NCBI RefSeq assembly: GCF_023555385.1
Contig: NZ_JAJSED010000001.1
Coordinates: forward strand, 1,426,001 to 1,490,000
DNA length: 64,000 bases
Reading direction: 5' to 3'
DNA from: Guyparkeria hydrothermalis
GTDB taxonomy: Bacteria > Pseudomonadota > Gammaproteobacteria > Halothiobacillales > Halothiobacillaceae
The first letter of the stretch is position 1, and every line of letters starts with the position of its first letter. Both the position numbers and the translations under genes were made by a program. Positions 6,825-14,693 of this stretch are shown in pieces. The notes under the pieces were generated by a model, which was not told the origin of the DNA, searched no databases, and worked only from the letters and a program-made list of their open reading frames with translations.

Positions 6825-7805
6825 TCAGGAGGCTCCTTCGCTATGCCGGGCCCGGGCGATCAGATCGTCCAGGGTAGTGTCCAGTGTCCATCGTGGACGA
6901 TGCTCAATCAGCTGGTGCAACCGCGTCAGGTCCGGGCAACGATGCGGTATGTCCACGTACTCCTGGCCGTACGCGACCTCGTAGGGAATGCGCTCGACCT
7001 GCGACTTGGAACCGGTGCGCTCGATCACCCGCAGGGCCAAGTCGTTCATGGAAAGCTCGTGGCCGCTGCCCACGTTGACGATCACCCCGTCGGTGGTCGA
7101 CTGCTCGGCCAGCTGATCGAGCATCACCACCGTGTCGCGCACATCGGTGAACGCGCGGCTCTGGGTGCCGTCACCGAACACCGTCAAGGGCTCGCCATCC
7201 ACCGCCTGACGCACGAAGCGCGGCACCACCATGCCGTAGCGCCCGGTCTGACGAGGGCCGACCGTATTGAACAGCCGCACGACCGTCACCGGGATTTCCT
7301 TGGTGCGCGCATAGGAGAGAGCGAAGGCCTCGTCGGCCAGCTTGCTGATGGCGTAATTCCAACGCGGCGGGGCTTCCGGCTGGATGATCAGATCCATGTC
7401 CTCTCGCAGGTAGTCGTCGGTGCGAGGTCCGTAGACCTCGGAACTGGACGCGAGCAAGACCTGAGGTCGCCAGCCACAGTCATTGACGGCGCGCAGCAGG
7501 CGCTCACAACCGGCAATATTGGTGGCCATGACGCTGATGGGACGTTCGAGGACGCGGAACACCCCCACCACCGCGGCGAGGTGATAGACGCGATCGGCCC
7601 ATCCGACCGCCTCTTGCAGCCCGGACCAGGTGACGATATCAGCCTCGGAGAATCGGAAATCGGGACGGTCGAGATGAGCGGCGAGGTTGTCCCGCGAGCC
7701 GGTGCTGAGATCGTCGACCACATGCACCTTGTCGCCCCGATCGAGGTGAAGATCAACCAGATGGGAGCCAATGAAACCGGCACCGCCAGTGATCAGGACA
7801 TGCAT
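6825..7805 (-). CDS. NAD-dependent epimerase/dehydratase (extended SDR)
   Basis: The 326-aa nucleotide-sugar enzyme has the NAD-binding GGAGFIGSHLV at residues 7-17, a DDLSTGSRDNL acidic-loop region, SSSEVYGP and the catalytic YAISK (Tyr-x3-Lys). The later VGPRQTGRYGMVVPRF segment is typical of UDP-sugar epimerases, UDP-glucuronate decarboxylases and dTDP-glucose dehydratases, and sequence alone does not separate these. The start Met at 7805 follows TAAGGAGG; an earlier in-frame start lacks support. It is the first gene of the three-gene polysaccharide operon and presumably supplies the sugar donor. Confidence 0.87.
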   Translation of the reverse strand: MHVLITGGAGFIGSHLVDLHLDRGDKVHVVDDLSTGSRDNLAAHLDRPDFRFSEADIVTWSGLQEAVGWADRVYHLAAVVGVFRVLERPISVMATNIAGCERLLRAVNDCGWRPQVLLASSSEVYGPRTDDYLREDMDLIIQPEAPPRWNYAISKLADEAFALSYARTKEIPVTVVRLFNTVGPRQTGRYGMVVPRFVRQAVDGEPLTVFGDGTQSRAFTDVRDTVVMLDQLAEQSTTDGVIVNVGSGHELSMNDLALRVIERTGSKSQVERIPYEVAYGQEYVDIPHRCPDLTRLHQLIEHRPRWTLDTTLDDLIARARHSEGAS

Positions 7806-7989
7806 GTCGAGCCTCCTTACGGCCTTCCCCGGCCGCCGTGGCACCCCTTGCCACTCTCGAAGCCGAGTATAGACGAGCAACCGACAAACCGTATGTTGTC
7901 GCCACGCCACACCGGCAGGCGCCCGATCGAGACCGACCGCCGCCTGCTATTGTTCAGCGTAGATACCGAGATGCGAGGAGGCCTGTCGC

Positions 7990-8451
7990 ATGACCGAACC
8001 TACCGTCAACCGTTCGGCCCTGGTGCTGTGGATGCCCGCCAGCCTGCTGGTCGCGGCGCTGCTGCTGTGGCTCGGGGCCGACCTCCATCCACCGGGGGCC
8101 GCGAGCGCCCGCACCCTGCCTGCCTCGCCGTTGACCGGTGCAATGGGATTTGCCTTCCTGCTGGCCTTTGCCGCCTTTGCCTACGCCGCTTCGATCACCA
8201 CGCCCCATAGCCGAAGCGAACGGACCGGGTTGTGGGCTGGTCTCGCCCTGCCGCTGGGCGTGGTGCTGTTGCTGCAGGCCGAGTGGTCGATAGTCGCACT
8301 GCTCGTTGCACTTGCCTGGCTCGCCATCCTGATCTGGACAGCTTGGCAACTGGCGCGGCGCCAGCCTCTGTCTGGCCTGATGATGCTGCCGGTCATCGGC
8401 AGCGCGATCGCCAGCTTCCTGCTATCCGCGACCCTGTGGGCGTTGCCCTGA
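7990..8451 (+). CDS. Small membrane protein, possibly TspO-related
   Basis: The 153-aa protein has four or five hydrophobic segments (about residues 10-30, 48-68, 80-96, 100-120, 128-150). The C-terminal part, a Trp-containing helix, RRQPLSG and then LPVIGSAIASFLL..LWAL, resembles the last helices of TspO/MBR-type proteins. The N-terminal tryptophan-rich features of that family are not evident, so the assignment is tentative. A clear ribosome site (AGGAGG) lies 9 bases before the ATG. It is divergent from the polysaccharide operon and followed by a terminator. Confidence 0.6.
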   Translation: MTEPTVNRSALVLWMPASLLVAALLLWLGADLHPPGAASARTLPASPLTGAMGFAFLLAFAAFAYAASITTPHSRSERTGLWAGLALPLGVVLLLQAEWSIVALLVALAWLAILIWTAWQLARRQPLSGLMMLPVIGSAIASFLLSATLWALP

Positions 8452-8798: not shown

Positions 8799-9284
8799 TT
8801 ACAACCGCTCCGGTAGTGCCGCTCGAATGTCCTCGGCCGATCGCCCGGAGAGATCCTTCGCCTGGTCGGCCACCAGCGCCTCCTGTAGCGATTTTCCCAT
8901 GGACTCACGCAACAACCCGAGAAAATCGGGCGCCGCCAGCAGGTAGAACCGGTCCACCTTTCCGGCTTGGCGGGCCTGATCAAGCTCACCCACCACCTCG
9001 CGCGCGAATCGCTTGGCCTCAACATCTCGCACGCTGTTGGGCGGCTCGTAGGCATGCATGGCATCACCCTTGCGGTCCGCCGTGGCGCCGGGACGATCGG
9101 TTTCCAGGTCCGCATCCGCCAGCCGCGCGGCCGGGTTGGACAACGACGTGATTTCCTCAAGCTCACCCTTAGGAGCCGGCTGGCTGGACGGAAACGCCTC
9201 GCTGCCCCGGTAGGCCCCGCTATTGTCTCGAACGGCAAGAAAACGCGCGCGCGCCGCGTCGGCAACGACTACCCAAGTCTTCAT
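8799..9284 (-). CDS. Host-attachment (baeRF-like) family protein
   Basis: The 161-aa protein begins MKTWVVVADAARARFLAV, the hallmark of the so-called host attachment protein family, an eRF1/archaeal-release-factor-like fold. A central polar region ends near HAYEPP, and the C-terminal half (FYLLAAPDFLGLLRE..) matches the family's second conserved block. The biochemical role is not established for most members. The ribosome site GCAAGGAGG is well placed. Length is normal for the short form. Confidence 0.78.
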   Translation of the reverse strand: MKTWVVVADAARARFLAVRDNSGAYRGSEAFPSSQPAPKGELEEITSLSNPAARLADADLETDRPGATADRKGDAMHAYEPPNSVRDVEAKRFAREVVGELDQARQAGKVDRFYLLAAPDFLGLLRESMGKSLQEALVADQAKDLSGRSAEDIRAALPERL

Positions 9285-9378: not shown

Positions 9379-9406
9379 CAAAAAAACCCCGCCGATCGGC
9401 GGGGTT
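9379..9406 (-). terminator. Intrinsic terminator of the sulfur cluster (after the rhodanese gene)
   Basis: The perfect palindrome aaccccgccgatcggcggggtt (9385-9406) is followed on the minus strand by a run of T residues. It is 31 bases beyond the rhodanese stop codon. Confidence 0.85.
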
Positions 9407-9436
9407 CCTGCTTCATGGTTCCGTGAAGGGGGCAGA

Positions 9437-10432
9437 TCAGTAGATCTGGGCCGGATTAACCGAGCTTGCACCCTCGTCCACGTACATGCCGTACTCCTTC
9501 ATCGAGCCGTCATACAGCTGGACGTCGTCGTTGCCGACGATCTCGCTGGCAACGAACCACAGACCGGACGCAAGGTTGCCCGAGTTGCAGTAGGTGATGA
9601 TCTCGCCATCCGGGTCGATACCCTTGAACTGCATGATCGAGCGATAGCTGGCTTCCGGCAGGAAGTTGGCGGCAGCGCCGTCAGCGCGAACCAGGGCCTC
9701 GGTCGGCACGTTGAACGCGCCCTTCAGGTGACCCGGCACGGTCTTCGACTTGCTGAACACGCCCAGGTACTGGTTGACCGGACGCGCATCGAGCAGCTGC
9801 ACGTCACCGTCGCTGTCCACGGCCTCACGCACCTCGGCGTAGGTCGCCAGAATCTCGTCGCGCTGGTCACTGGCCTTCCAGTCACCCGCATCGACCTTGC
9901 CCGGCTTGCCGGTCTCGGCGTCGAAGCCGGCGGCGAGCCAGCTGGCCAGGCCACCGTCGAGGATGGCCATGTCGTCGTGGCCGTAGTACTTCATCTGCCA
10001 GTACAGGCGAGTGGCCTTGGTGAAGTCGGAGCCCGACAGGCCCAGCGGCACGATCACGACGGTGTCATCCGAATCGACGCCCAGCGCCCGAACGAACGTC
10101 TCGAAATCCGCCTTTTCCGGAATCAGCTTGCCGACTTCCTTACCGTTCTCCATGCGCTTGACGCGCACGCTGCCCCAATCGACGAATTGAGCGCCCGGGA
10201 CATGGCCGGCAACCACGGAAACCACCTTCTTGCCATCCACGGTTTCGTACTTCGGCGCCATCGCGAACGCCTTCTCCGACCCCGTGATCTGCAGAACGGT
10301 GACCTCTTCGAGATTGTCGTTCAGCCACTGGGCATCGACGACCGGCCCGGGCGCGTCCAGTGCCCAGGCCCCTTGCGCGACGGCCAGCGCGGCCGCCCCG
10401 GCGGGGACAACAAGAAACCGCTTGAAATTCAT
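9437..10432 (-). CDS. Periplasmic tandem-rhodanese sulfurtransferase
   Basis: The 331-aa protein has a signal peptide (residues 1 to about 25, ending GAWA) and two rhodanese domains. The C-terminal domain carries the active-site loop C-NSGNLASG with Cys282, and the N-terminal domain lacks a cysteine at the equivalent place (PLGLSGS). This is the usual layout of thiosulfate or 3-mercaptopyruvate sulfurtransferases. It probably moves sulfane sulfur in the periplasm. The ATG at 10432 follows AAGGAG; an upstream TTG in the same frame is less likely. It is the last gene of the minus-strand sulfur cluster and is followed by a strong terminator. Confidence 0.85.
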   Translation of the reverse strand: MNFKRFLVVPAGAAALAVAQGAWALDAPGPVVDAQWLNDNLEEVTVLQITGSEKAFAMAPKYETVDGKKVVSVVAGHVPGAQFVDWGSVRVKRMENGKEVGKLIPEKADFETFVRALGVDSDDTVVIVPLGLSGSDFTKATRLYWQMKYYGHDDMAILDGGLASWLAAGFDAETGKPGKVDAGDWKASDQRDEILATYAEVREAVDSDGDVQLLDARPVNQYLGVFSKSKTVPGHLKGAFNVPTEALVRADGAAANFLPEASYRSIMQFKGIDPDGEIITYCNSGNLASGLWFVASEIVGNDDVQLYDGSMKEYGMYVDEGASSVNPAQIY

Positions 10433-10493
10433 ATGACTCAACTCCTTCTTCGTGCATCAAAAACGGCGCGCATCCGGCGCCGGAAAATCCGCC

Positions 10494-11174
10494 CTATCCA
10501 GGCGGGGAAAGCAGTTCGGCTTCGGCCTGCAGGGAGTCCACCCGTTGAGACCAGCGGGCCAACACGGCCTGCATGTCCAGCGGGCACTCGCTCAATACAT
10601 GTCGCTCACGGTCCTCGACGGTGGCCGGATCGGGCCGGTGCCCACCTGCCCCGGTGACGGCCTCGTCCCGCGCGACCAGCAGCTGCTGCACCTCGGGCAT
10701 CAGCAACGCCACCAGCGCGGTAAGCCAGCGTCCGACCAGCCACGAGGGGCGTGACCGATTGATCTCGAACCCCTCTGGCAGCCGGGACAGCAACTCCTCA
10801 GCGGGACGCATGACCTCTCCCGTCACCCAGCCGTTGGTGGTGAAAAGCCGCCGCGGCTGCCCCTTGGCATCCATCGAGACTCCGACCACATGGGAAAACC
10901 CCGGGCCGTCCGGCTCGCCGACGAAGAGATGAAAATGGCCGTGCTCCTGTAGAGACCACTCCGACGGATCGTGGGCGTGGTAGTAGAACCGCGCACCGGT
11001 AACCGGGTCCCGGGCATCGTCTTCCGGGAAATGCGCCCAGTAGTCGAAGCCGGAGTCGATGTGGTCACGGAACAGCTCGGTCAGGATCGTCTGCTGATCG
11101 GCCGCCAGCGCGGACTGGATCGAGTGCCATTCGTCCAGCGCCGCCAGACCGGCCTCGAGCCAATTGGGTTCCAT
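10494..11174 (-). CDS. DUF6969-type hypothetical protein with His-rich centre
   Basis: The 226-aa soluble protein is most like the uncharacterised DUF6969 group. It has a conspicuous histidine cluster, HAH (residues 66-68) and EHGHFH (77-82), which could bind a metal ion. Further on are FTTNGWVTGE and a Trp-containing helix (RPSWLVGRWLTALVALL). An upstream in-frame GTG (11198) would add eight residues; neither start has a strong ribosome site. It lies between the NPCAP-repeat gene and the rhodanese gene, all on the minus strand. Function unknown. Confidence 0.65.
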   Translation of the reverse strand: MEPNWLEAGLAALDEWHSIQSALAADQQTILTELFRDHIDSGFDYWAHFPEDDARDPVTGARFYYHAHDPSEWSLQEHGHFHLFVGEPDGPGFSHVVGVSMDAKGQPRRLFTTNGWVTGEVMRPAEELLSRLPEGFEINRSRPSWLVGRWLTALVALLMPEVQQLLVARDEAVTGAGGHRPDPATVEDRERHVLSECPLDMQAVLARWSQRVDSLQAEAELLSPPG

Positions 11175-11242
11175 CTCGCTTTCGGGCGACTTCACCACGC
11201 TGCGCTTCGCAACCGGCGGTTACCGCTCCAAGCGGCCCCGGC

Positions 11243-11623
11243 TTACTGACCGCCCGGCGCGCACGGGTTGCCCCCGCGACCCGACGGAGCGCAAGGGTTG
11301 CCGCCACGCGCAGACGGGGCGCAGGGGTTACCGCCACGTGCCGACGGAGCGCAGGGGTTGCCACCACGTGCCGACGGGGCACAGGGATTGCCACCACGCG
11401 CAGACGGGGCACAGGGATTACCGCCACGTGCCGACGGGGCGCAGGGATTGCCACCGCGCGCCGACGGGGCACAAGGGTTCCCGCCACGCGTCTGCGCTGC
11501 CGCGGTCGCCGGCATCATGGTCGCTGCCGCCAGTGACGCACTGACGGTCAGCGCCATGGCGGGAAGCGACGATCTCAGCGCACGGCGGGCGCGCACCTTT
11601 TGAGCAATTTTCTTGGATTCCAT
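11243..11623 (-). CDS. Secreted protein of eight Cys-containing GGNPCAP decapeptide repeats
   Basis: The 126-aa precursor has a basic N-terminus and a hydrophobic stretch ending ATAAA (signal peptide, cleavage near residue 43). It is then almost entirely eight copies of a ten-residue unit RGGNPCAPSA (residues 46-126), with the last two units ending SG and GGQ. The mature part has one cysteine every ten residues and almost no hydrophobic residues. Units differ at third codon positions (AAC/AAT, TGC/TGT, GGC/GGT) while the protein is kept, which points to selection. GTAGGAG lies upstream of the ATG. It sits between the YeeE/YedE pair and the DUF6969 gene. I know no characterised homologue; sulfur carrying, metal binding or cross-linking are guesses. 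Confidence 0.8.
   Translation of the reverse strand: MESKKIAQKVRARRALRSSLPAMALTVSASLAAATMMPATAAAQTRGGNPCAPSARGGNPCAPSARGGNPCAPSARGGNPCAPSARGGNPCAPSARGGNPCAPSARGGNPCAPSGRGGNPCAPGGQ
11249..11488. repeat. Eight 30-bp tandem repeats encoding the NPCAP units
   Basis: The 240-base array has a 30-base period and no spacers. It lies wholly within the secreted repeat protein gene. Variation between units is concentrated at third codon positions. Confidence 0.9.
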
Positions 11624-11692
11624 GGGTATCAGCTCCTACGGGATATATGGCGGGCGAATGGCCGCCCGCGAATTCAGATGATTAACGGCTTC

Positions 11693-12358
11693 TTAGGTCG
11701 CGTCCTGCTGTCGCGAGGCGCTGGCTTCCCGGCCCAGATCGCGCCCGAGCTCGTCGGAGTCACTGGGATCACGTCCCTCGGTGATGTCCTCGGCCGAGTA
11801 GACACCATGACTGCGCCGCTCGAGGGCGCGGCCGGCCGCATAGCCCGCGATCGCCATCCCAACCATCGCGGCAATGATCACCCAGGGCGAGACGCCCAGC
11901 AGTTCCGGCACGGTGCGTGCCGATGCCTTGGCGCCAGTCACCACGCTCTGGATGAAGCTGGTGTCATACATCCCGGCAAACGCCCAGATGCCGATCACCA
12001 TGCCGAGCATGAAGATCAGGCCATCGATCCGGCCACTTCCCAGCCCGACGACCGAGGTGCCCGGGCAGTAGCCACCGATGGCAAAACCCGCGCCGATCAG
12101 CACGCCGCCGAGCACGGTGCCCCAGAGGTACATCTCCGCGACGTAGAAGCCCTGCGAGCCGAACGTGTTGTTGACCTGCAGCAGCAGGATGCCGGCAGCC
12201 GCGACGATGATCGCCGTAAACATGACCTTGAACACCGACCAGTCCGTGAGACGAAACTGGGCGGTGAGCTTGCAGGGAGAACCGAAGCCTGCTTGTTCGA
12301 GCACGAAGCCGAACAGCAGGCCGGTCGCCAGTGCGGTACCCGCGGTTCCGTAATCCAT
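11693..12358 (-). CDS. YeeE/YedE family transporter, second half
   Basis: The 221-aa membrane protein has five or six helices and two signature cysteine motifs, GSPCKL (Cys29) and GGYCPGTS (Cys98). These recall the conserved cysteines of TsuA (YeeE), the thiosulfate importer, where they relay the substrate. The C-terminal 40 residues are hydrophilic. It overlaps the preceding half-gene at TAATG, so the two are translationally coupled and presumably form one transporter. Transport of thiosulfate or another sulfur compound is inferred from family and neighbours. Confidence 0.82.
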   Translation of the reverse strand: MDYGTAGTALATGLLFGFVLEQAGFGSPCKLTAQFRLTDWSVFKVMFTAIIVAAAGILLLQVNNTFGSQGFYVAEMYLWGTVLGGVLIGAGFAIGGYCPGTSVVGLGSGRIDGLIFMLGMVIGIWAFAGMYDTSFIQSVVTGAKASARTVPELLGVSPWVIIAAMVGMAIAGYAAGRALERRSHGVYSAEDITEGRDPSDSDELGRDLGREASASRQQDAT

Positions 12359-12870
12359 TACCAGACCCTCCGCATGAACAGACTGACCAGAAGACCCACC
12401 ACGAAGAACGCGATCAGGAAGACGAAGCCGGCAACGCCGAGCATGGCGGTGTTCGACAGGCCGACACCACTGGTGCAGCCCGCCGCCAGCCGGGACCCGA
12501 AGCCGGCGAGCAGACCGCCGCCGAGAGCCAGCGCCAGACGAGTCCCGACACCGATTCGGCCCGAGCCACGGTCAACCTTCACCCGGAACCGGCCGGAGGA
12601 AATCGACGCCAGGATGGCGCCAACCAGGGTGCCCACGGCGGCGAGCACGATCCAGGCCGCCAGCGGGTTGCCCTGTGCCATACCGCCGAGATAGCCGTTC
12701 GCGCGCGTCGCCTCGGGGGCAACCTGAAGACCAACCTCAGTGGCCACGCGGGCGAAGGCGCCCGACGAGCCCATGCCGTTACCCACCAGGACGAAGGTGA
12801 GCAGCAAAACCAGGCCGAGCACGATCCCGGCAACGAAAGGGGGCCACAATGGCCGAACTTGGCAAGACAT
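12358..12870 (-). CDS. YeeE/YedE family transporter, first half
   Basis: The 170-aa membrane protein has four or five helices and the motif AAGCTSGVGLSN (Cys132), the counterpart of the cysteine motifs in full-length YeeE/YedE transporters. Split versions encoded by two adjacent genes are common in this family. An AGGAGG ribosome site precedes the ATG. It is expected at the inner membrane with the partner encoded immediately downstream (one-base overlap). It follows the MBL-fold gene by 84 bases. Confidence 0.82.
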   Translation of the reverse strand: MSCQVRPLWPPFVAGIVLGLVLLLTFVLVGNGMGSSGAFARVATEVGLQVAPEATRANGYLGGMAQGNPLAAWIVLAAVGTLVGAILASISSGRFRVKVDRGSGRIGVGTRLALALGGGLLAGFGSRLAAGCTSGVGLSNTAMLGVAGFVFLIAFFVVGLLVSLFMRRVW

Positions 12871-12954
12871 TCCCTGATAAACCTCCTGGAAAAAACGTAC
12901 GAAAAATCCCTTAGCGGCCCGACGCAGCGCCGGGCCCTGTTCTCAATAGGTTCG

Positions 12955-13980
12955 CTAGAACGCGGCCGCTTCGGCCTCGAGGTAAGCGAGCGAGGCGTAC
13001 TTGCCGATGTTTTCCTCGAACCCGTTGGTCACCGGCGCGTAGTGCTGGACGCGCTCGTCGGCGAGCACGTACTTCTTGACCTCGGAGGGGCTGGCCATCT
13101 CCTTGACCGCCTTCTCGGCGCCCTCGTAGATGCCGAGGAAGAGGATGCGGTTGTTCTCGATCAGATCCTCGGACGGAAAACCATGGGCCGGAATCCAGTA
13201 GCCGTCGGGTACGGCAGCCTCAAGCGCGTCGTAGACCTTGAACGTCCCGAGGAAACTGCCGTCGTCCATGAACGCGATGCGGTTGTTCATGGCCACATCG
13301 CCCACGTGAACGATCTTCTTCTCGACCAGTTCCAGGCAAATATCCGAGGGGGTATGCGCCGTGCCGTAGAAGTGCACGCGGATGGTGAGGTCGCCGAAAT
13401 CGAACTCGTCGCCGTGACCGACCTCGTGATTCGGCGGGGTGACCACGGTGCCGGCAATCGCGTTGCCGGTGGAACGCTCCATCAGACTCTTCCAGAAATC
13501 ACCCTGATTGGTCCGGATGGCCGAGGCGGTCTTCTCGTGCGCGTAGATCGGCACGTCCGGGTTCTCGCGAACAAAGGCGTGGTTTCCGAGCCAGTGATCG
13601 CCGTGGTAGTGCGTGTTGAATACCGCCACCACCGGCTTGTCGGTGATCTTGCGAATCTGGCGCAACGCCATCTGGCCGATCTGCAGCGAGGCCCCACTGT
13701 CGAGGATCACCACCCCTTTTTCGGTGATCACGAAGGTGATGTTGCTCATCATTCCCTGGTTCGCCTCGGACGGGAAACCCCAGGGCGAAACGATCACGTA
13801 GACGTTATCGGCAATCCAGGTGGCCGGGAGGTCGGGCATCGGCGGCCCCTCGACCACCATCGATTCCTCGGCGAAGACGCGGGACGACCACGCAAGAGGG
13901 GCTGCGGCCAGCCCGGCTGTTGCCCCCAGGTTGCGCAGAAAGCGACGACGGGTTGCCAGGAACTGCTTCTCGAATTCCAT
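12955..13980 (-). CDS. Tat-exported metallo-beta-lactamase-fold hydrolase (SoxH-like)
   Basis: The 341-aa protein begins with a Tat signal (TRRRFLRNLG near residues 10-19, then an Ala-rich segment). The mature protein has the zinc motif THYHGDH (123-129), later ligands HTPSD and GDVAMN, and a distal PAHGFPSED. It is most like SoxH and the quinoprotein-associated zinc hydrolases found beside sulfur or quinoprotein genes. The substrate is unknown; a sulfur-containing metabolite is plausible from the neighbours. It is the first gene of the minus-strand cluster that ends with the rhodanese. GGAGAA lies upstream of the ATG. Confidence 0.83.
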   Translation of the reverse strand: MEFEKQFLATRRRFLRNLGATAGLAAAPLAWSSRVFAEESMVVEGPPMPDLPATWIADNVYVIVSPWGFPSEANQGMMSNITFVITEKGVVILDSGASLQIGQMALRQIRKITDKPVVAVFNTHYHGDHWLGNHAFVRENPDVPIYAHEKTASAIRTNQGDFWKSLMERSTGNAIAGTVVTPPNHEVGHGDEFDFGDLTIRVHFYGTAHTPSDICLELVEKKIVHVGDVAMNNRIAFMDDGSFLGTFKVYDALEAAVPDGYWIPAHGFPSEDLIENNRILFLGIYEGAEKAVKEMASPSEVKKYVLADERVQHYAPVTNGFEENIGKYASLAYLEAEAAAF

Positions 13981-14231: not shown

Positions 14232-14693
14232 ATGGCCTGTGCCGACCACCACCAGTGCATCGACGATGCCCTCGCCCGCGCCGAGGCAATCTGCGCGCGC
14301 TCCGGCGCCCGCCTAACGCCGATTCGGCGTGACGTGCTGCGCGAGGTCTGGTCCAGTCACGAGGCCACCAAGGCCTATGACCTGATCGAGCGGCTGTCCC
14401 GAGACGGCGAGCAAATCAAGCCACCAACGGTCTACCGCGCGCTGGACTTCCTGCTTGAACATGGCCTGATCCACCGCATCGAGAGTCTCAACGCCTTCGT
14501 CGGCTGCGAGCATCCGCAGGAAGCGCACCAGGCGATCCTGATGATCTGCGACCGTTGCGGCGACATCCGCGAGGACGACAACTCGGAGGTCCAGGCAGCC
14601 CTGAAAAAACTCGCCAGCGAGACGGGTTTCGTGCCACGGTCGGCCGTGATCGAGCTGCGTGGCCTCTGCCGCAACTGCCGCGCGACCCACTGA
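14232..14693 (+). CDS. zur: Fur-family regulator, probable zinc uptake regulator Zur
   Basis: The 153-aa DNA-binding protein has an N-terminal winged helix (PTVYRALDFLLEHGLIHRIESLNAF) and the structural zinc pairs CDRCGD and CRNC at the C-terminus. The GCEHPQEAHQ segment is typical of Zur rather than Fur, which would have an HHHDH-like stretch. In zinc sufficiency Zur represses zinc uptake genes. It is divergent from the zinc-dependent MBL-fold gene across a 251-base gap, but no zinc importer genes are adjacent. Confidence 0.82.
   Translation: MACADHHQCIDDALARAEAICARSGARLTPIRRDVLREVWSSHEATKAYDLIERLSRDGEQIKPPTVYRALDFLLEHGLIHRIESLNAFVGCEHPQEAHQAILMICDRCGDIREDDNSEVQAALKKLASETGFVPRSAVIELRGLCRNCRATH

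Follow-up and report, generated by a model that had tools for sequence, protein, structure and literature searches.

How sulfur is delivered from the periplasm to importers of the YeeE/YedE type has been modelled but not settled, as far as the available part of the 2024 SoxT paper goes (PMC11582611). A locus of the gammaproteobacterium Guyparkeria hydrothermalis raises the question of whether a small secreted protein made of cysteine repeats could play a part in this process. The locus is a six-gene cluster in a stretch of 64,000 nucleotides, hereafter called the window (NCBI RefSeq assembly GCF_023555385.1, contig NZ_JAJSED010000001.1, positions 1,426,001 to 1,490,000 of the forward strand), from a genome of 2.39 Mb. 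It combines two halves of a YeeE/YedE transporter with a rhodanese, a protein of the metallo-beta-lactamase (MBL) fold, a Cys-repeat protein and a member of the family DUF6969. We find that DUF6969, not the transporter, is the tightest partner of Cys-repeat proteins, and that a rhodanese, a YeeE/YedE protein and a small secreted Cys protein recur together in other lineages. That such pairings recur in unrelated bacteria suggests that sulfur is handled outside the cell membrane in a way not yet described.

Results

Composition and conservation of the cluster

The initial annotation of the window, made from the letters alone, had described six genes on one strand. All of them were recovered on the minus strand where it had placed them, with matches to PF00753, PF04143 (twice), PF22308 and PF00581, in the order MBL-fold protein, C-terminal YeeE half, N-terminal YeeE half, repeat protein, DUF6969 protein and rhodanese, followed by a hairpin:

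12955..13980, minus strand: protein of the MBL fold with a twin-arginine (Tat)-type export signal (PF00753, E 2e-24; start RRRFLRNLG, judged by eye)
12358..12870, minus strand: C-terminal half of YeeE/YedE, PmpA-like (PF04143, 63.4 bits, cut-off 27, profile positions 176-307)
11693..12358, minus strand: N-terminal half of YeeE/YedE, PmpB-like (PF04143, 64.7 bits, cut-off 27, profile positions 3-150)
11243..11623, minus strand: secreted Cys-repeat protein with eight RGGNPCAP units (tandem array 11255-11490)
10494..11174, minus strand: DUF6969 protein, alternative GTG start at 11198 (PF22308, 190.7 bits, cut-off 27, E 3e-56)
9437..10432, minus strand: two-domain rhodanese of the periplasmic type with a single Cys in a YCNSGNLAS loop (PF00581, E 1e-19, 71 bits)
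about 9383..9407, minus strand: hairpin followed by a U run, which probably terminates the cluster (folding against shuffles)
14232..14693, plus strand: divergent Fur-family (Zur-like) gene, a conserved neighbour (PF01475, E 5e-13)

The C-terminal YeeE half precedes the N-terminal one, and the two genes overlap by one base. The full cluster and the divergent Fur-family gene are found in the same order at the loci L001-L006, which represent six of the eleven loci retrieved (the rest were cut or distant), and in five further genomes (L121-L125); an additional locus, L126, lies on the same contig as L006 and was not counted. The gene-neighbourhood comparison proposed in the initial annotation was largely successful, with the full cluster in Guyparkeria and Halothiobacillus relatives and a shorter module in other lineages, and the notion of a cluster private to the genus was rejected.

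The Cys-repeat array is selected at the protein level

The repeat protein comprises 126 amino acids, with a Sec-type start (as judged by eye) and the eight units noted initially as GGNPCAP repeats. It has no match in Pfam or NCBIfam at E values of up to 1. When its units were compared by position (every 10 codons, residues 46-125), the 28 pairs showed 131 synonymous and 19 non-synonymous codon differences, with the latter all confined to the last two linker residues of the unit (SA, SG or GG). Within the eight-residue core RGGNPCAP, for which units were picked by this peptide itself (the array contains no other unit), there were 112 synonymous and 0 non-synonymous differences. Because the units differ overwhelmingly at synonymous sites, without a single non-synonymous change in the core, the array is selected as a protein, and from the synonymous-only core and the positional codon counts we reject a chance low-complexity open reading frame (ORF). 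The number of units is 11 to 14 in six relatives, compared with 8 in the window protein.

A search of plasmids with the repeat protein as the query gave no match, and a match in one genome of the family (G016, 5e-4), which would have been the nineteenth with the repeat protein, was discarded because it falls, by reading, in a CRISPR-like array. An NPC-repeat protein from a deltaproteobacterium (L011, 7908-8453, plus strand) has another C-terminal part and no Pfam match, and it adjoins a beta-propeller-type protein. Another NPC-repeat protein (L055, 6744-7838, minus strand) adjoins DUF6969, and its C-terminal part bears a weak resemblance to cytochrome P460 (22.3 bits, cut-off 27).

DUF6969 is the tightest partner of Cys-repeat proteins

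Of 27 family genomes, 18 were found to encode the repeat protein and 19 to encode DUF6969, with all of the 18 included in the 19. The genome with DUF6969 and no window-type repeat protein (G014) encodes a Cys-repeat cytochrome with GCAPK units a few genes away, and the second DUF6969 copy of another genome (G010) likewise lies near such a cytochrome (loci L128 and L129). Outside the family, a Rhodoblastus metagenome-assembled genome (L008) shows the order PmpA-PmpB-repeat-DUF6969 at the start of a contig, with no rhodanese match in 9.7 kb.

The phylum was sampled evenly with 398 genomes, of which 20 had DUF6969 (21 loci), 48 had proteins matching an NPC-repeat profile and 14 had both. NPC-profile proteins thus occur in 14 of the 20 DUF6969 genomes versus 34 of the 378 others (Fisher p 5e-10), a count based on at most 10 scored candidates per genome that missed some cases (G157 carries an NPC protein); 31 of these 34 genomes belong to a single family, f67. 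In the DNA itself, 16 of 20 DUF6969 loci from 19 genomes (window genome excluded) contain, within 2 kb of their centre, an ORF with Cys repeats and a signal-like stretch, as opposed to 0 of 38 control windows taken from the same loci (p 6e-11). The p-values overstate independence, since the criterion for calling such ORFs was fixed after the loci had been read (an earlier cut gave 14 near and 3 far loci, some in the wrong frame) and since the loci are partly related, including three genomes each of families f46, f101 and f73 and two loci of G419. One locus counted as a miss (L073) contains, by reading, an SPCGLS/NPCGLS-type stretch and would be the seventeenth; another (L061) is truncated, beginning 175 bases from the contig end, and in two (L054 and L064) no Cys-repeat ORF is seen.

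The Cys motif itself varies with the lineage, from NPCA to KPCAAK, CCAAEG, CAAGCAAC, AKCGAKCG and SPCGLS, with PCAAGAPC and KCAPK units on plasmids of Sinorhizobium meliloti and Burkholderia glumae, respectively. Two Azospirillum plasmid loci, in which DUF6969 is situated beside lipid-transport genes and no Cys-repeat gene was seen, are counter-examples to the pairing. A scan of viral contigs with DUF6969 yielded one partial locus.

On the S. meliloti plasmid, the PCAAGAPC units are part of an unannotated ORF between the YeeE/YedE and DUF6969 genes (L108, about 7625-7999, plus strand). On the B. glumae plasmid (L109, 1653-16519), DUF6969 lies directly 3' of an 89-residue KCAPK-repeat protein, and the pair is surrounded by genes annotated for arsenosugar biosynthesis and by a DUF692 (MNIO) gene.

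Conserved residues and predicted structure of DUF6969

Thirteen positions of DUF6969 are invariant in 30 sequences (P50, H66, H68, E77, G79, H80, H82, H95, F111, N114, V117, R169 and D170), five of which are His residues (H66, H68, H80, H82 and H95). By eye, no signal peptide is evident. The predicted structure (pLDDT 83.9, pTM 0.84; ten sequences) places four of the five invariant His residues on the predicted strands 62-67, 79-86 and 93-101. Comparisons with solved structures returned no convincing relative, with a best E value of 0.93 in Foldseek, a best Z score of 3.4 in VIA-align (850 chains) and a best E value of 0.92 in a sequence-profile search, which is no proof of a new fold. We infer that DUF6969 may be a metal-dependent enzyme or a metal-binding chaperone. 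A full-text literature search found no paper on DUF6969 or PF22308, and the pairing with Cys-repeat proteins offers a first functional lead for this family.

A rhodanese, a YeeE/YedE protein and a small Cys protein form a recurrent module

The rhodanese of the cluster matches PF00581 in two stretches, and its alignment with bovine rhodanese covers both domains. As initially described, it has a single active-site Cys, that of the YCNSGNLAS loop, and it has no other Cys. Exactly one Cys per protein, in a YCN or FCN loop, is found in each of nine rhodaneses compared from such clusters. A shorter module composed of a single-Cys rhodanese of the periplasmic type, YeeE/YedE and a small secreted Cys protein recurs in several forms. 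In three genomes of another family (G300, G410 and G414), rhodanese, YeeE/YedE and a Cys-repeat protein, which in two of them has 20-28 PC motifs, are encoded together, with DUF6969 elsewhere in the genome. Three others (G436, G335 and G191) combine the rhodanese and YeeE with a mini protein of the CAPCGAPC type, and the module includes DUF6969 in S. meliloti, G297 and three f46 genomes.

When the phylum was searched with a rhodanese profile, 15 matches reached an E value of 2e-77 or lower, a cut picked after the scores had been seen; six of the 15 genomes had themselves supplied rows of the profile. Of these 15 clusters, 12 contain YeeE, and a secreted Cys protein is present in 11 of the 12 (the exception being G412). 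Among six previously unexamined genomes with a match, YeeE is adjacent in three (G335, G191 and G412) and a CAPCGAPC protein is present in two; in G323, weak YeeE-like matches lie 2.4 kb from the rhodanese. None of nine lower-scoring rhodanese loci (L169-L177) has a YeeE match, and Cys ORFs called with a lax criterion, two of them at these loci (L172 and L174) and others in L163, L165, L166 and L167, looked wrong-frame on visual inspection. DUF6969 was found in none of G335, G191 and G412, a weak negative given that control genomes also gave no match in this search although the family was matched in the 398-genome search.

In all seven proteins with fused Cys repeats that were scanned (L058, L060, L062, L063, L081, L128 and L129), the fusion partner is moreover a domain of the SoxA/TsdA type that scores over the Pfam cut-off. 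A Cys outside the CXXCH motif occupies a single column in 11 of 11 sequences, including the SoxA of the window genome and a SoxA/TsdA-family cytochrome of f46; in SoxA and TsdA, this extra Cys ligates haem. In the two f46 clusters read downstream (L070 and L072), the genes that follow the rhodanese encode an ArsR-type regulator and a small membrane protein. The L070 regulator resembles BigR below the cut-off (NF040642, 110.5 bits, cut-off 155), the membrane protein matches a YgaP-like transmembrane domain, and the cytochrome upstream of this cluster matches the SoxA/TsdA family PF21342 (57.1 bits, cut-off 27) and falls short of the SoxA equivalog TIGR04484 (58.4 bits, cut-off 110).

NPC-repeat proteins and NPC-SoxA/TsdA-type fusions are also encoded in f67 (L113, L114 and L120), near genes for an ArsM-like methyltransferase, a radical SAM-type protein and a multihaem cytochrome. 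These neighbours were identified by reading, with Pfam matches for the methyltransferase and for one of the cytochromes. The DUF6969 matches of the 398-genome search include none from f67.

The transporter halves and the MBL-fold protein

In eight of eight aligned split and fused relatives, the Cys of LAAGCTSGV in the PmpA-like half and that of GGYCPG in the PmpB-like half are invariant. In the available part of the SoxT paper, PmpB and PmpA are described as the N- and C-terminal halves, with one conserved Cys each and a length of about 130 residues (PMC11582611). The window halves fit this pattern by their PF04143 ranges and by one shared Cys column each. These columns agree with that paper's description (PMC11582611) and may correspond to Cys91 and Cys293 of TsuA. 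Because they comprise 170 and 221 residues, thus exceeding the about 130 given for PmpA and PmpB, we term them PmpA/PmpB-like. A phmmer search of the PDB gave no match for either half. The window genome contains a second, distant PmpA/PmpB-like pair near 302 kb (L132, 1562-2113) and a full-length YeeE near 838 kb. In the NCBIfam comparisons, the cluster rhodaneses match ExtH, which belongs to operons for the reduction of selenite/tellurite; for the fused YeeE proteins, the match is YedE/FdhT. All of these matches are below the cut-off.

The MBL-fold protein appears to be a distant relative of SoxH-type quinoprotein relay metallohydrolases, with both cut-offs missed (TIGR04558, 130 bits, cut-off 300; TIGR04559, 140 bits, cut-off 280). 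Its gene is the first of the cluster throughout the family, in the Guyparkeria and Halothiobacillus relatives. The three f46 clusters have no MBL match, and membership of the MBL gene in the cluster is confined to the window's own family.

Discussion

Transporter, rhodanese and MBL superfamily are already known kinds of protein; the Cys-repeat protein has no family in Pfam or NCBIfam, and no paper on DUF6969 was found in the literature searched. Literature searches by titles and abstract beginnings returned no description of this gene set or of such a Cys-repeat protein, and the words YeeE, rhodanese and SoxH are absent from the available main text of the Guyparkeria pangenome paper (PMC9032823). 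For these reasons, we call the cluster a putative sulfur module centred on YeeE, with a proposed carrier and a partner that are both undescribed.

The similarities to known systems are partial. SoxY carries its Cys on a Gly-rich flexible arm. The repeat protein likewise has Cys residues on a Gly-rich arm, but it lacks a SoxY domain match in Pfam and NCBIfam, so that membership in SoxYZ can be rejected, and Cys-repeat proteins as a group carry 3 to 28 Cys motifs on tandem arms. In some of them, the repeats are joined to a domain of the SoxA/TsdA type that keeps the extra Cys, as in SoxAX/TsdA, whereas the window protein has no cytochrome domain. With TsuA/TsuB, SoxT1A/SoxT1B and PmpA/PmpB, the cluster shares halves that match the N- and C-terminal parts of PF04143, one invariant Cys in each of them and neighbours of the sulfur type. 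However, the partners named for YeeE/YedE importers in the available part of the SoxT paper are TusA-like, DsbA-like, SoxS and rhodanese proteins, not a Cys-repeat protein or DUF6969 (PMC11582611). Like ExtH and 3-mercaptopyruvate sulfurtransferase, the rhodanese has two domains with the active Cys in the second, but it scores below both NCBIfam cut-offs and differs by its signal-type N-terminus and its one Cys in the entire protein. In bufferins, an enzyme modifies Sec-exported precursors with Cys motifs, according to the part of the bufferin paper available (PMC12452194). The present system resembles them in its Cys motifs, in the adjacent gene for a protein without an evident signal peptide and perhaps, as judged by eye, in a Sec-type signal, but the neighbour is DUF6969 instead of an MNIO and the surrounding genes are of the sulfur instead of the copper type. 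The sole PF05114 match of the genome is about 416 kb away, and membership in the MNIO/bufferin group was therefore rejected.

Together, the YeeE halves, the single-Cys rhodaneses, the recurrent module, the SoxA/TsdA fusions and the regulator context in f46 make sulfur the best reading, and we consider it probable that the cluster has a sulfur function. A more specific model, in which a multi-thiol protein acts as a periplasmic carrier or relay of sulfane sulfur, is suggested by the gene context and by the unsettled periplasmic donor of YeeE-type importers (PMC11582611); to us, the chances of this model being right or wrong appear evenly balanced. The repeat protein would then be exported by Sec and serve as a flexible carrier or store, with its eight Cys residues each on a Gly-Asn-Pro-Cys arm and with thiosulfate, polysulfide or sulfide oxidation as possible sulfur sources. 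The rhodanese could shuttle sulfane sulfur from small donor molecules to the thiols of the repeats or back, and the loaded protein could present it to the PmpA/PmpB-like importer, with its one conserved Cys per half, by which the sulfur would enter the cell. The exported MBL-fold protein would probably process a sulfur ester, thioester or persulfide. As a protein encoded beside YeeE-type importers and outside any Pfam or NCBIfam family, the Cys-repeat protein is a candidate for an undescribed carrier, and its multiple cysteines make it a concrete one for periplasmic sulfur presentation.

DUF6969 would stay in the cytoplasm and act there on the repeat protein that is still to be exported; its most likely role would be that of a metal-dependent enzyme that modifies or protects the repeat cysteines. 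This idea is based on the gene pairing, the apparent absence of a signal peptide, the His block and the analogy with bufferins, and we regard a role as a modifying enzyme as possible, with the balance of expectation somewhat against it. It is tempting to speculate, with considerable doubt, that DUF6969 represents an as yet unrecognised class of metal-dependent enzymes in the cytoplasm, which would modify Cys-repeat proteins at their cysteines, ahead of export by Sec, in the manner of ribosomally synthesized and post-translationally modified peptides, parallel to the MNIO/bufferin systems. In many hosts, these proteins might serve periplasmic sulfur traffic, and in some bacteria, where the arms are fused to a SoxA/TsdA-type haem domain, one polypeptide might be both a sulfur-conjugating enzyme and its own carrier. 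DUF6969 also offers a testable case of a non-exported protein partnered with secreted Cys-repeat proteins.

The initial proposal that the cluster imports or processes a sulfur compound gains from the co-occurrence in related and unrelated genomes and from the sulfur-type neighbours, but it has to be qualified in that DUF6969 is a tighter partner than the transporter and the MBL gene is restricted to one family. Several further observations weigh against it. Ten of the 20 DUF6969 genomes have no YeeE gene within 5 kb of the DUF6969 or Cys-repeat gene, four of them (G135, G216, G433 and G449) have no YeeE match at all, and one match counted among the ten positives (G386) is only a fragment. The association with YeeE, and hence the link to sulfur, is thus not universal among DUF6969 genomes. 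In f67, the NPC proteins lack DUF6969 as a neighbour and have ArsM-like, radical SAM and multihaem cytochrome genes next to them instead, and relatedness between genomes affects many of the counted loci. In Hyphomicrobium, pmpAB lies near a SoxYZ fusion and SoxH, yet the available part of the SoxT paper assigns it to a gene set for alcohol oxidation, not sulfur oxidation (PMC11582611). Finally, cysteine repeats suit metal binding equally well.

The last point leads to the main alternative, namely that the repeat protein is a metal buffer akin to bufferins, with cytoplasmic DUF6969 turning the repeat Cys residues of the Sec-exported precursor into metal ligands for the periplasmic buffering of Cu, Zn or As. 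Its logic is that of the MNIO-modified bufferins, as outlined in the available part of that paper, namely a Sec signal, Cys motifs and an adjacent enzyme gene (PMC12452194), and it would accommodate the invariant His block of DUF6969, the Zur-like gene adjoining the cluster, the B. glumae pair among annotated arsenosugar genes and an MNIO gene located roughly 2 kb away from one of the two DUF6969 genes in G419, the second. Given that the sole MNIO match of the window genome is so distant and that the rhodanese, PmpAB and the SoxA/TsdA-type fusions indicate sulfur, we consider this explanation unlikely, albeit worth keeping in view. The same parts could also detoxify an excess of persulfide or sulfide outside the membrane, with the repeat protein absorbing sulfane sulfur, the MBL-fold protein and rhodanese clearing it and import not being the purpose. 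The BigR-like regulator and YgaP-like protein of the f46 cluster L070 would agree with such a sink for sulfur stress, as would the coat of elemental sulfur on thiosulfate-grown Guyparkeria cells mentioned in the available part of the pangenome paper (PMC9032823); however, it would render PmpAB superfluous, and the MBL-fold protein is nearest to SoxH-type families in NCBIfam (below their cut-offs), which together make a sink improbable.

Two other explanations fare worse. The ExtH and YedE/FdhT matches below cut-off could point to the handling of selenium or tellurium oxyanions by the same chemistry, but these matches are weak and sulfur families score similarly, leaving very little room for this option. 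It is harder still to believe in a structural or surface role for the repeat protein, with an accidental place in the operon: its low complexity and the range of 8 to 14 units across relatives would suit such a protein, but the core of the unit is conserved as protein and Cys-repeat ORFs accompany DUF6969 in 16 of 20 loci versus 0 of 38 control windows.

Flanking features

The hairpin behind the rhodanese gene, GAACCCCGCC-GATC-GGCGGGGTTT, has a folding energy of -21.8 kcal/mol and is followed by a U run. Folded with 45 nt it reaches a z score of -3.84, and with 67 nt only -1.94; the closing terminator announced in the initial annotation is rated a likely one, and the terminator consensus scan does not list it (about 9407-9383). 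A hairpin between the DUF6969 and rhodanese genes (10482-10464) is included in that scan; because its folding does not surpass that of shuffled sequences (z 0.60), we do not propose a terminator inside the cluster. On the other side of the cluster, the Zur-like gene reaches 149 bits against PRK11639, under the cut-off of 167, and keeps its divergent position in the Guyparkeria and Halothiobacillus relatives (L001-L006 and L121-L125). Beyond the terminator lies a Host_attach/baeRF-type gene (8799-9284, minus strand), whose position is kept in the Guyparkeria relatives L001-L006.

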